Positions 1 through 10,062 of a stretch of DNA of 64,000 nt are shown one piece after another. Position numbers and translations under genes: made by a program. The DNA is taken from positions 992,001-1,056,000 of the forward strand of contig NZ_CP015104.1 in NCBI RefSeq assembly GCF_002214525.1, written 5' to 3'. This DNA comes from Thermococcus sp. P6 (GTDB lineage Archaea; Methanobacteriota_B; Thermococci; Thermococcales; Thermococcaceae). The notes beneath the pieces are model-generated. The model made no database searches and was not told the DNA's origin. It was given only the letters and a program-made list of their open reading frames with translations. Position 1 is the first letter of the stretch; each line of letters opens with the position of its first letter.

Positions 1-366
1 ATAATATCGAAGGGGCCGATTTACGACCTCATGGTTACAGAAGCGGACGTTCTGGTGGCACTCGCCCAGCTCGGTTACGAGACTGCAAAGGACGTGCTCA
101 GGAAGGACGGACTCCTGATCGTCGATACAGACCTCGTGAAACCCGAAAGGGATCACGTGGGTGCCCCGTTCACGAGGCTGGCCGAGGAGAGCACCGGGCT
201 TGCCCTGACCGTCAACATGGTGGCCCTCGGCTACCTCGTGGCGAAAACCGGGGTGGTGAAGAAGGAGAGCGTCGAGGAAGCGATAAGGAGACGCGTTCCC
301 AGAGGAACCGAGGAGATAAACATAAGGGCCTTCAGGGCCGGTTACGAGAGAGGGGTGATATCATGA
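1..366 (+). CDS. 2-oxoacid:ferredoxin oxidoreductase, gamma subunit (3' part)
   Basis: The reading frame is open from the first base, so this is the C-terminal 121 residues of a gene that starts upstream; the ATG at 31 is internal. The stretch matches the gamma subunit of archaeal ferredoxin-dependent 2-oxoacid oxidoreductases: it resembles the C-terminal half of the complete gamma subunit at 2353, including the shared '[12 protein letters not shown]'-like ending (here RGTEEINIRAF). Its stop overlaps the ATG of the next gene by 4 nt (ATGA). In Pyrococcus a 2-oxoglutarate oxidoreductase operon lies directly before a second alpha-beta-gamma set, and the same arrangement is likely here, but which substrate this complex uses cannot be read from the fragment. 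Confidence 0.88.
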   Translation: MISKGPIYDLMVTEADVLVALAQLGYETAKDVLRKDGLLIVDTDLVKPERDHVGAPFTRLAEESTGLALTVNMVALGYLVAKTGVVKKESVEEAIRRRVPRGTEEINIRAFRAGYERGVIS

Positions 367-6236: not shown

Positions 6237-7061
6237 TCAGAACCTCAGCTCCACCCAGTTCTCCTTGCTCCCCTTGAGGACCTTCACGAGTCCCTTCCTT
6301 TCGAGGCGCCTGAACATCCTCCATGCGGTGGTTTTCGGAAGGCCGATGGCCTCTCGAACCTCCGCCTGACTGGCCCTTCCACCCCTGTCGAAGAGGTATA
6401 TCAGCGCACGCTTCTCGTCCTCCGTGAGGTCCAGGTTGTTGAGCCTTTCCATGTACTCCTCGCGGCTCGGGGGTTTCTTTCCCCTTTTCATCTTCCACAG
6501 GAGGTAGGAGAGGCTTCCGAGGAGGCCCAGAACGGCCAGCACCGGGATGTAGGACGTTTTCCCTTCGTAATCCCCGGATGTAACGCCCTCGAGCGTGTAC
6601 GAAACGCTCTGGTTCCCGGGGGGCATCGTTATGGAGTTGCCCGCTATCTCGAGGGGTACGTCACTGAGGTCCACAACGACCGCGTTCTCGGGGAACACGA
6701 CCGTGAACGAGTGGTTCGTGGAAAGGTTGAGCTTCCACAGGATGCCCTCCTTTGAAGTTAGATCCGGGGTGTAGTAGGAAACCCTGATGACCCCCGCCTC
6801 CCCGGGGTACACGAGAAGGCTTCCGTTCTCGAGCCGGAAGTCGAGCGGGTTCCCGTCCCCATCCTCAACGATGAGGTTCTCGTAGTGCTCCGGCAGGGAA
6901 AGCTCGATCTGGGACGAGTACTCCGGAGAGAGGATCTCGTATTCAACCTTAACGTAACCGTCGCTGTAAACCGTCAGAAGGAGGGACGAGATGGAGTAGG
7001 CACGAACGGCGGGAAACAGAAGCAGGGTCATCAGGATGAGAGTGATCGTTCTGGTCCTCAT
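6237..7061 (-). CDS. Membrane-anchored winged-helix protein with extracytoplasmic domain
   Basis: A 274-aa protein built like a one-component membrane sensor. Residues 1-21 form a signal peptide or N-terminal anchor; 22 to about 168 are a beta-rich extracytoplasmic region with several NxS/T sites; 170-189 is a transmembrane helix followed by the basic stop-transfer KMKRGKK; 208-274 is a winged helix-turn-helix of the kind placed in archaeal DUF4897/DUF7343-type membrane proteins (helix 'SQAEVREAIGLPKTTAWRMF'). The ATG has GGAGGTGAT upstream. It follows the secreted helical protein with a 30-nt gap and is clearly its operon partner. I infer that the outer domain senses something, possibly its partner, and the inner domain binds DNA; neither ligand nor target is visible. 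Confidence 0.8.
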   Translation of the reverse strand: MRTRTITLILMTLLLFPAVRAYSISSLLLTVYSDGYVKVEYEILSPEYSSQIELSLPEHYENLIVEDGDGNPLDFRLENGSLLVYPGEAGVIRVSYYTPDLTSKEGILWKLNLSTNHSFTVVFPENAVVVDLSDVPLEIAGNSITMPPGNQSVSYTLEGVTSGDYEGKTSYIPVLAVLGLLGSLSYLLWKMKRGKKPPSREEYMERLNNLDLTEDEKRALIYLFDRGGRASQAEVREAIGLPKTTAWRMFRRLERKGLVKVLKGSKENWVELRF

Positions 7062-7091
7062 TTAATCATCACCTCCGAAAAAGGAAAAGGG

Positions 7092-8306
7092 TCAGGAGTG
7101 GGCCAGAATAAACTCCTCGACCCTGTGGAGGCTTTCGAGTGCAATGGCGAAGTGGGCTCTGGCATCGGCCGGCTTCTTTTTCCCGAGGAAGTGTATACCC
7201 ATCCTGAGCTCCTCGACGGCCACTCTAAGGCCCAGCTCGGCCCTCCTCGTGTCCACGCCCCTTCTCCTGAGCCCCTGAAGCGCCTTCCCGTCCTTCTGAA
7301 TTCTGTCGTTCATCTCCTTGAGGAAGCCGCGCAGGTTCTTCATCTTTTCATCGAGCTCCCTCTCACGAGCCTTCCTGAGAACGAAGTTAACGGCCCTGTG
7401 GAAGTCCCCTATGGTTTCCCTGTTGTCGTTCATCACGCTCAGGGCCTCTTCCCATTTCCCTTCGTCCGCGAGGGCCTTAACCTGTTCGTAGACCTCTGAG
7501 AAGGCGTCGAGCTTTTCCTGGAGTTCGGTGACGTTCTGACCGTTCTCTTCTCCGGCTTCGATGGCCTTTTCAACGATCTCGATTCCTTTCTCACCTTTGT
7601 CGAGGAAGTCCCTGACGATCTTATCGGCGTTTGCGTAGGCAAGTTGCTCGCGAACCTTTCTGAGTTCTTCGTCGAGGAGCGCCTTCTTCTCCTCTGCTAC
7701 CTCGTAGTCCTCCTTCGCCTTCTCGTAATCGCCGGCCTTTAGGTCATCCAGCACGGCTTTGTACGCCGCTTTCGTCTCGTTGTAGAGGGCCGTCAGGTTG
7801 CTCACGTCTATCCCCTGATTCTCCGCCATCTTTATCGTCTTCTCAACGAACCTGAAGTACTCGGTGGTGCGTTCTATTCCCATCCTGAGTCTCTCCCTCG
7901 CGTCCTGAACCTTCTCCCCCGCTTCCCTGATGGCCGAGAGTGCAACCCTGTAGTGGTGCATTGCAGTGAGGCTGTCGAGTATCGAGTTGTAGTAGTCCCC
8001 GGCGTTGTACTCCTCAACGGCCCGCTCTTTGTACTCCTCCGCCATGTTGTAGTGGGTCAGTATGGTTGAGTTCTCGGGCAGTTTGTCCTTTAATCCTTCT
8101 ATCTTATCTTCCGCGAACCTGCTGAGCTTCTGGAGGTTCTCAACGAGCCTCTCGGCTATTAGGGCTTCTCTCGTGGCGTTGTCAAGCACGCCGGTGTAGG
8201 CTTCCGTGTCGTTGGCTTCCCCGTTCGCTTCCGCGAGGCCCAGCGGCACGAGGCTCCCAACCAGCAGTACCGCAAGGGCCATTGCAAAGGCCTTCATCCC
8301 GTTCAT
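7092..8306 (-). CDS. Secreted alpha-helical (coiled-coil) protein, unknown function
   Basis: I do not recognise a named family. The 404-aa product starts with a signal peptide (about residues 1-25, hydrophobic AMALAVLLVGSL core) and the rest is almost entirely charged alpha helix with heptad-like spacing, rich in Glu, Lys, Arg and Ala. Segments such as YNAGDYYNSILDSLTAMHHY and LKAGDYEKAKEDYEVAEEK resemble tetratricopeptide-like helical hairpins. I chose the ATG at 8306 because GGTGAT precedes it by 4 nt; GTG 8315 and ATG 8312 fall inside that site. It leads the operon with the membrane winged-helix gene. The C-terminus (DARAHFAIALESLHRVEEFI) again looks like a helical repeat. No lipobox or surface anchor is seen. 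Confidence 0.75.
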   Translation of the reverse strand: MNGMKAFAMALAVLLVGSLVPLGLAEANGEANDTEAYTGVLDNATREALIAERLVENLQKLSRFAEDKIEGLKDKLPENSTILTHYNMAEEYKERAVEEYNAGDYYNSILDSLTAMHHYRVALSAIREAGEKVQDARERLRMGIERTTEYFRFVEKTIKMAENQGIDVSNLTALYNETKAAYKAVLDDLKAGDYEKAKEDYEVAEEKKALLDEELRKVREQLAYANADKIVRDFLDKGEKGIEIVEKAIEAGEENGQNVTELQEKLDAFSEVYEQVKALADEGKWEEALSVMNDNRETIGDFHRAVNFVLRKARERELDEKMKNLRGFLKEMNDRIQKDGKALQGLRRRGVDTRRAELGLRVAVEELRMGIHFLGKKKPADARAHFAIALESLHRVEEFILAHS

Positions 8307-8360
8307 GGGCATCACCGATCACCCCTACGTCCCTTCCCTATTTTAGGACCCCGGTGAAAC

Positions 8361-8368
8361 GAACGTTC
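8361..8368. promoter_or_regulatory. GAACGTTC palindrome upstream of the 8306 operon
   Basis: The palindrome GAACGTTC lies about 55 nt upstream of the start of the secreted-protein gene, just upstream of a TATA-like CCTAAAATAG at about 8338-8347. A half-copy, TCGTTCC, follows 7 nt away. The place is right for an activator or repressor site of the operon. The rest of 8315-8500 is AT-rich (TTTAATC and TTTTATT runs) with no gene. Confidence 0.3.
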
Positions 8369-8500
8369 CAAATCGTTCCAGCGGTTCAGACCTGGATTTT
8401 AATCGTCGTTTTATTCCAAATCGGCTTTAATCTGGTTTTACCTGTTAAAGCCCCCGTGGAGGGGCCAGTGAGGGTTGTTGGTTGAGGTTCTTAATAAACC

Positions 8501-9232
8501 TTACATCAGGATTTTAATCGCTATCACCACGAGCAGAACCGAGAAGCCTTTCCTCAGGTGCTCCGGGTGGAGCCTGTGGGTAAGTAGCGCCCCCAGTCTG
8601 GCCCCCATCAACAGGCCCGGGCTCAGGAGGAGGGCGGTGTAAACATCAACCTGTCCGAGGCTGTAGTGGCCGATTGAACCCACAAGGGCCGTGAAGAACA
8701 GGGCGAAGCTCGAGGTTCCGATGGCGTAGCGCATGGGTATGCCCACGTAGGAGTAAAAGAGGGGAACGTTTAGGATCCCCCCGCTTATACCGAGCAGGCC
8801 CGAGGTGAGGCCCGAGAGGACGCCCACGAGGGCAACCTTCCGGGCTTCGAAGTTTCCCGCTCTTGAATTCTCTTCCCCCTTCCCCCGGAACATGTGGACG
8901 GCGAGGTAAAGGAGGAGGAAGGCGAAGATCAGTCTTAGATACTTCTCGGGAAGCAGGGAGGATACGTAAGCGCCGGCCAGCGCGAAAGGAGCGGAGAAGG
9001 ACTCCTTCAGGAGAACGACACGGTAGAGGACCGCTTTCTTTTTAAGATGGGTAAATGCAGCTGACAGGGAGCTGAAGGTTATGCATACCAAACTCGTCCC
9101 CACGGCAACGTGAACGGGAAGGCCGAGTAACACGAGCGTTGGAACTATGAGGAAGCCACCCCCGACACCGAAGAGACCGGCGATGAGACCTATGCCAAGC
9201 CCGATGATGAGGTCGAGGAGGTAATCCAGCAT
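8501..9232 (-). CDS. TauE/SafE family permease (first of two)
   Basis: A 243-aa integral membrane protein of the TauE/SafE (sulfite/sulfonate/organoanion exporter) family, with 7-8 predicted helices in two homologous halves. The glycine-rich signature GLFGVGGGFLIVP near residue 20 recurs as GLLGISGGILNVP near 145. This repeat is the family hallmark. The substrate cannot be told from sequence; sulfite, sulfonates, thiosulfate or small carboxylates are known for relatives. It sits 56 nt downstream of a paralogous permease on the same strand and probably shares its transcript. The ATG at 9232 gives a normal family length. Confidence 0.88.
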   Translation of the reverse strand: MLDYLLDLIIGLGIGLIAGLFGVGGGFLIVPTLVLLGLPVHVAVGTSLVCITFSSLSAAFTHLKKKAVLYRVVLLKESFSAPFALAGAYVSSLLPEKYLRLIFAFLLLYLAVHMFRGKGEENSRAGNFEARKVALVGVLSGLTSGLLGISGGILNVPLFYSYVGIPMRYAIGTSSFALFFTALVGSIGHYSLGQVDVYTALLLSPGLLMGARLGALLTHRLHPEHLRKGFSVLLVVIAIKILM

Positions 9233-9288
9233 AAAGGCTCCTCGAGTCCGGGGTTAAAAATCCTTTGATGAACCGCAGGGGAAAGGAA

Positions 9289-10062
9289 TCAGGGGACACC
9301 GAAACCGAGCCCCTTGAGTATCATCCTCAGGGCGAGCAGGAACATTACCACCGCAAATGCCTTTTTCAGGGAGGAAGCTTTTGTCCTTCTGGCAACCCTC
9401 GCACCGAGCTGGGCACCCGTTATCAGGCCCGGAACGAGGAGGATTAGCCACTGAACCTCAACGTTGCCGAGGGTGTAGTGTTTGATGGCCCCGGCGGATG
9501 CCGTGAAGACTATGGTAAAGCTTGAGGTTGCCACCGCGTAGTGAATCGGCAGACCGAGGTAGGTCAGGAAGGGGACGTTGATTATGCCTCCCCCAACGCC
9601 GAGCAGACCGCTCGAGATTCCGGCGAAGAAGCCGCCGATGGGGACGAGTTTGTAGTTTATCCTGACTTCCTCCAGCCTTACATCTCCCGGTTCGGCCGTT
9701 TTCTTCCGGTATACCCTGAAGGCGACGGGAAGAAGCGCCAGACCGAAGATGACCTTCAGCTGGCCGGCGCTCACGTAACCCGTCATCCATGCCCCTGCGT
9801 AGGCCCCTATCACGGCCGTCGAAGCGAGGAGGAGACCGGTTTTGTAGTGTATCCTCCCCTGCCTCGAGTAGCCTATCGCCGAGCTGAGGGACGTGAAGAC
9901 CACCGCAGCGCTCGAGGTTCCCACCGCATGGTGTATCTCGACGCCGAGGAAGTTGAGCACCGGAACCACCAGAAAGCCTCCACCGAGGCCAAAGAGGGCG
10001 GCGAGGATTCCTATGAACACCCCCACCGCGAAGTAGCCCGTGTATTCGAGGTACCTCAACAA
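9289..10062 (-). CDS. TauE/SafE family permease (second of two)
   Basis: A 257-aa TauE/SafE-family permease with the paired signatures ALFGLGGGFLVVP near residue 24 and GLLGVGGGIINVP near 157. It shares the same architecture as the following gene and both probably come from a local duplication, since residues around HAVGTS and YAVATSSF align well. The gene begins 18 nt after the stop of the D-2-hydroxyacid dehydrogenase, so dehydrogenase and two permeases may form one transcript. That context raises the option that the permeases move an organic acid, but sulfur oxyanions remain equally possible. Confidence 0.88.
   Translation of the reverse strand: MLRYLEYTGYFAVGVFIGILAALFGLGGGFLVVPVLNFLGVEIHHAVGTSSAAVVFTSLSSAIGYSRQGRIHYKTGLLLASTAVIGAYAGAWMTGYVSAGQLKVIFGLALLPVAFRVYRKKTAEPGDVRLEEVRINYKLVPIGGFFAGISSGLLGVGGGIINVPFLTYLGLPIHYAVATSSFTIVFTASAGAIKHYTLGNVEVQWLILLVPGLITGAQLGARVARRTKASSLKKAFAVVMFLLALRMILKGLGFGVP

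Follow-up and report, generated by a model that had tools for sequence, protein, structure and literature searches.

A candidate surface-to-DNA circuit in Thermococci formed by a membrane-bound winged-helix regulator and its secreted helical partner

In ToxR, the winged helix is cytoplasmic and N-terminal and the periplasmic domain is C-terminal, and its partner ToxS is anchored in the membrane. ToxR/ToxS and TcpP/TcpH are bacterial transmembrane regulators with a cognate partner that acts on the outer domain (PMC10269533, PMC7496328). Among the archaea, ArnR and ArnR1 of Sulfolobus are membrane-bound one-component regulators that control the archaellum and pili; they consist of an N-terminal helix-turn-helix (HTH), a HAMP-like and a sensing domain, and two C-terminal transmembrane helices, with no secreted partner listed (PMC6396743). 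ArnR also appears as an archaeal example in a table of characterised transmembrane regulators (PMC10269533). Here, we describe a gene pair, designated S and M, from a 64,000-nucleotide stretch of the Thermococcus sp. P6 genome (hereafter, the window). Like ToxR/ToxS and TcpP/TcpH, it comprises a membrane-bound winged-helix regulator (M), which would likewise work from the membrane, encoded with a partner (S), for which we propose an action on the outer domain, and the partner is adjacent and co-inherited, as in ToxR/ToxS-type systems (80 of 87 M genes, with co-duplication). Unlike ToxR, M carries its ectodomain at the N-terminus, after a signal peptide, and its winged helix at the C-terminus, and unlike the membrane-anchored ToxS, S is soluble and secreted, with a signal peptide only. 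Further differences from ToxR/ToxS are the archaeal origin of S–M and the operator-like element that the promoter of the partner gene itself carries. The combination of an N-terminal winged helix, a C-terminal periplasmic domain, and an anchored partner was not found in S–M, and because the topology of M is reversed and S is soluble, we do not regard the pair as a member of ToxR/ToxS. M resembles ArnR and ArnR1 as an archaeal membrane-bound one-component regulator, but differs from them in its N-terminal ectodomain, single transmembrane helix, C-terminal winged helix, and partner S. A literature search, in which subscription journals were poorly covered, found neither the S–M pair nor its promoter motif described.

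In the window, S precedes M on the minus strand, with a spacing of exactly 30 nt (Table 1). A preliminary description of this DNA had proposed two co-oriented genes 30 nt apart, and both open reading frames (ORFs) were confirmed at 6237–8306. The start codon of S reads as ATG, with GGTGAT just 5′ of it. Two tandem TauE/SafE-type transporter genes lie 5′ of S on the same strand (8501–10062), and many Thermococcales share the location of S–M beside metG-like and tauE-like genes. A function shared with the conserved neighbours (metG-like, tauE-like, and others) was not evident; we take them instead to mark one stable ancestral location, because paralogous S–M pairs have other neighbours.

Table 1. 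Positions of the S and M genes, their protein regions, and the promoter elements in the window
Feature	Position	Strand	Remark
M ORF	6237..7061	minus	274 aa, single-pass membrane regulator
M ectodomain	6582..6998	minus	residues about 22–160, beta domain (23–157 in AlphaFold2 model), pLDDT mostly >90
M transmembrane helix	6486..6545	minus	residues 173–192, AlphaFold2 helix; then KMKRGKK (positive-inside)
M cytoplasmic winged helix	6246..6443	minus	residues 207–272 by Pfam; 200–272 in AlphaFold2 model
S ORF	7092..8306	minus	404 aa; start 8306, end 7092
S signal peptide	residues about 1–26		followed by charged helical hairpins, several N-glycosylation sequons
TATA-like box TAAAATA, S–M promoter	8339..8345	minus	position conserved in homologues
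Outer downstream half-site GGGTCC	8346..8351	minus	overlaps BRE position
Core operator-like palindrome GGAACG-TT-CGTTTC	8356..8369	minus	within profile hit 8337–8380
Outer upstream half-site GGAACG	8374..8379	minus	10-bp phase with core

The structure of S predicted with AlphaFold2 from an 84-sequence input consisted only of helices (mean pLDDT 86), and no membrane helix beyond the signal peptide was found in the sequence or in the model. The signal peptide and the helix-only model bear out the earlier suggestion of an exported, charged helical protein. Pfam returned no family above the cut-off for S, the weak candidates below it (SH3BP5 etc.) being taken as coiled-coil noise, and a fold search against the PDB gave no match at E ≤ 0.001. 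The cold-induced proteins CipA and CipB of P. furiosus have been described as solute-binding proteins (PMC10746257), and an identity of S with these was rejected because S is all-helical.

The AlphaFold2 model of M (mean pLDDT 85) begins with a signal helix at the N-terminus. Its ectodomain matched ribophorin I/Ost1 (Foldseek 6s7t_E, E = 9.5e-7, probability 1.0) and the N-terminal domains of M1 aminopeptidases (Foldseek E of about 4e-5). Unlike in those proteins, with which identity is about 15%, there is no oligosaccharyltransferase or peptidase context and the ectodomain is fused to a winged helix. A Pfam search of M at E ≤ 1 gave no ribophorin family match, and the modelled likeness to both groups is a fold resemblance only. 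The winged helix matched TrmB (PF01978, E = 4.3e-9) and DUF7343 (PF24034, E = 1.2e-7), both above the gathering cut-off, and the helix sequence in its recognition helix region, LPKTTAWRMFRRLE, is conserved in an 81-row alignment. M shares this type of winged helix with the TrmB family (PF01978; TrmBL1, PMC4158304), but has an ectodomain and a membrane helix instead of the sugar-binding domain: the protein stops at the winged helix, where the C-terminal sugar/effector-binding domain of TrmB would follow, and the TrmBL1 equivalog model NF047390 matched only the winged helix, with 19 bits against a cut-off of 650. The operator-like element predicted for M likewise differs from the Thermococcales glycolytic motif of TrmBL1 (PMC4158304). 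AlphaFold2 and Pfam thus confirmed the one-pass membrane protein with an outer beta-rich domain and an inner winged helix that had been proposed for M. PMC10269533 defines a transmembrane transcription regulator as a single protein with a DNA-binding domain and one or more transmembrane regions; M has this composition and belongs to the class, with DNA binding predicted.

M was present in 59 and S in 55 of 61 Thermococcaceae genomes. Among 79 fetched Thermococcaceae loci, single-S and single-M loci included, S lay immediately upstream of M on the same strand for 80/87 M ectodomain genes and 80/90 S genes, and in most of these 80 adjacent pairs, the two genes overlapped by no more than 4 nt or were up to 93 nt apart. 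The distances among S proteins correlated with those among M proteins (r = 0.78; 0 of 2000 permutations), and at loci with two pairs, the paralogue assignments of S and M were concordant in 149 of 153 comparisons. Paralogous pairs often stand in tandem. Judged from these sequence comparisons, the S–M pair was duplicated as a unit. S and M occur together in about 92% of the M loci, in paralogues, in other families, and in Thermoprotei; the genes are not usually apart, and this pairing supports the layout originally suggested, a sensor with a dedicated secreted partner. A separate 49,106-base contig (G053:C2, locus L086), possibly a plasmid, bears two tandem S–M pairs, the first of which has triple 10-bp-spaced GAAACC repeats upstream.

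Several paralogue classes depart from the standard pair. In the M3 class, which is paired with S3 at six loci, the ectodomain and transmembrane helix are kept and the winged helix is gone. A class of stand-alone S paralogues occurs without M at eight loci (L068, L071, L074, L077, L081, L085, L090, and L135), several of which adjoin leuS. All seven of the 87 M genes that lack S are from Pyrococcus-like genomes and lie behind a DUF134-like gene. This small HTH gene and the accompanying M paralogue (L095, L102, L113, L115, L120, L122, and L126) suggest another regulatory couple that is worth a look.

S–M pairs were also found in other families of Thermococci. A genome-contig scan (alignment A5) identified a pair in a Thermoprotei metagenome-assembled genome (L323), and a search of the class to which this genome belongs yielded further pairs. 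At seven Thermoprotei loci, the place of S is taken by a secreted protein, and the profile of these proteins matched S with an hhalign E of 1.2e-13, compared with 5.8e-4 for reversed-sequence controls. Some of them contain an additional N-terminal segment ahead of the helical region, and those of L340, L345, L347, and L329 end in Gly/His-rich tails (e.g., GHGHHRGGRGH), which suggests metal binding. Many Thermoprotei genomes encode an M-like protein with no adjoining S; at six such loci (L333, L334, L335, L339, L341, and L343), the M-like gene lies directly 3′ of a conserved GalT/HIT-family-like enzyme gene, not of S. The M-like proteins of G080 and G081 (L171 and L172), which also lack S, are encoded near trpB and a predicted methyltransferase and have an altered recognition helix, IPKTSLSKLL, as against IPKT[TS][AST]WR in the M proteins of families f1, f2, and f4.

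The M-like proteins without an adjoining S in G080/G081 and in many Thermoprotei genomes, together with the DUF134-linked M genes, would fit a reading in which the M ectodomain directly senses membrane state, a glycan, or a metal, and S is the main regulated product and does not contact M. We consider this quite unlikely, however, because both the co-duplication of S and M and the retention of S next to the non-regulating M3 suggest that S contacts the ectodomain. Among the sequence data, the strongest argument for their working together outside the cell is that S is still found beside M3, a form without the winged helix.

A comparison of the DNA 5′ of S genes revealed a conserved block beside the TATA box. 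The copy in the window, on the minus strand from 8379 down to 8339, is GGAACG-ATTT-GGAACG-TT-CGTTTC-ACCG-GGGTCC-TAAAATA. Its four half-sites, an inner pair with one outer site on either side, are in 10-bp phase, and the last of them lies over the BRE. The core of the consensus is the inverted repeat GRAACG-NN-CGTTYC, which most paralogues carry just 5′ of the TATA box of S, and the direct repeat GRAAC[GC]-N4-GRAAC[GC] was found near 52 of 83 S starts, with 0.008 expected per start. The inner palindrome is conserved in families f2 and f4, whose M proteins are just 25–40% identical. Several S–M pairs, many of them in loci of the Pyrococcus-like genus g2, have no recognisable element.

A profile, R1, was built from the S-promoter elements. 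In the whole genome to which the window belongs (G000), R1 detected a single site, at the S promoter (E = 7.3e-14), which supplies a predicted target where the preliminary description had none. Over 1.49 Mb of loci, nearly all strong matches were S promoters, a result that is partly circular because R1 was trained on them, plus one ABC operon; the matches away from S and those in Thermoprotei are unaffected by this circularity. Matches occurred in 74 of the 94 family genomes, and R1 found zero sites in G028 and G040, two near-complete genomes with no M ectodomain. The one-mismatch pattern GRAACGNNNNGRAACG gave 57 matches in the genome of the window and its reversed form 31; as a genome scan it was uninformative save for its single exact match at S, and R1 was used instead.

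In Thermoprotei, the promoter-proximal half of the element, TTYCAnnGnnTTCCT, is recognisable upstream of the S genes. A matrix derived from Thermococci and including the TATA columns gave individual p values of 0.0003 to 0.036 for six evaluable Thermoprotei promoters, for which a combined p overstates independence because two of the loci, L345 and L347, are relatives. With the TATA columns removed, the S promoters of L323 and L329 scored highest among 4008 windows. The match at the L330 promoter was weak, and a high-scoring window at L346 was attributed to chance because it sits within another gene.

The specificity of the element for S promoters, its absence from two genomes lacking the M ectodomain, and its persistence across phyla argue for DNA binding by the winged helix. 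The element includes the BRE/TATA region, as might be expected if it belonged to a different regulator and M controlled something unrelated. This is very unlikely given that G028 and G040 lack both the element and the M ectodomain, that the element and the recognition helix are co-conserved in f1, f2, and f4, and that G080/G081, with their changed helix, have no S.

The element also precedes S genes paired with an M that lacks the winged helix (L100, L105, L108, L111, L119, and L132) and the S genes of the eight stand-alone loci. Since these S genes have either no M or one that cannot bind DNA, the element, if functional, would have to be served by an M encoded elsewhere, and action of M in trans on other S paralogues is implied. 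Away from S genes, R1 gave roughly thirty matches at E ≤ 0.001 in the 94 family genomes. The targets inspected include an ABC-2 exporter operon with a NEW3-domain protein (in G016, directly 3′ of an S–M pair), a LamG-domain membrane protein, a PMT-type membrane protein, a GH39-like secreted protein, a DUF257 protein, and an uncharacterised protein of about 110 amino acids. Several of these are envelope proteins, which suggests a role in envelope homeostasis. In the genome of the window, the element occurs at no other gene, so the predicted regulon there is S–M alone. The protein of about 110 amino acids (GYLFKN..LIGIYVE) has no Pfam match; it carries the S-type element in many genomes and is often encoded just 5′ of rpoH/rpoB-like genes (L249:7033–7359, L280, L281, L282, L283, L277, L278, and L290).

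These distributions also bear on whether S–M might mainly be a structural surface complex, in which M anchors S and the winged helix serves dosage autoregulation with no external signal. The existence of S-only copies that carry the element would suit such a complex, as would M3, which retains the ectodomain and transmembrane helix and pairs with S3. We nevertheless regard it as unlikely, because the winged helix is highly conserved in most M proteins and the presence of the element at unrelated genes (those for the ABC-2 exporters and the protein of about 110 amino acids) exceeds the dosage control of a single complex.

The architecture of the two genes, their pairing and co-duplication, the operator-like element, and the regulon candidates can be read from the sequences; from these, we infer that S–M is probably an autoregulated surface-to-DNA circuit composed of a transmembrane one-component regulator, M, and a dedicated extracytoplasmic partner, S. 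M, whose beta ectodomain faces outwards and whose winged helix lies in the cytoplasm, would act as a one-component transcription factor, most likely with two dimers on the four 10-bp-phased half-sites (GRAACG n4 GRAACG nn CGTTYC n4 GGTTCC), at a position just 5′ of the S-promoter BRE and partly over it. It would control its own operon and, in trans, further S paralogues, to which certain genomes would add other envelope/export genes. Exported S would most likely touch the M ectodomain, and the amount or state of surface S, or something that S binds, would provide the signal that sets M activity. As for the sign of regulation, the P. furiosus consensus is G/C(A/T)AAA for the BRE and TTT(A/T)3 for the TATA box (PMC10746257), and the S–M promoter deviates from both. 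Since the promoter is off this consensus and the operator-like element lies upstream, we lean towards activation; repression through the blocking of TFB is the alternative that we do not favour.

More broadly, and only tentatively, S–M may represent an archaea-specific signalling family of Thermococci and Thermoproteota in which S gates M via a ribophorin-like ectodomain, the regulator, partner, and operator have been kept together, and the pair has been duplicated into parallel circuits, with M3 as a decoy or anchor and with control of envelope genes. The flow of information from the cell surface to the genes is poorly known in archaea, and in Thermococci, transmembrane regulators account for a high share of the signalling genes (PMC10269533). 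The near-universal Thermococcales regulator M now gains a predicted operator, regulon, and extracellular partner, and these predictions can be put to the test in Thermococcales amenable to genetics. Should the Thermoprotei promoters contain true homologous sites, the regulator and its site would constitute a pair conserved across archaeal phyla.
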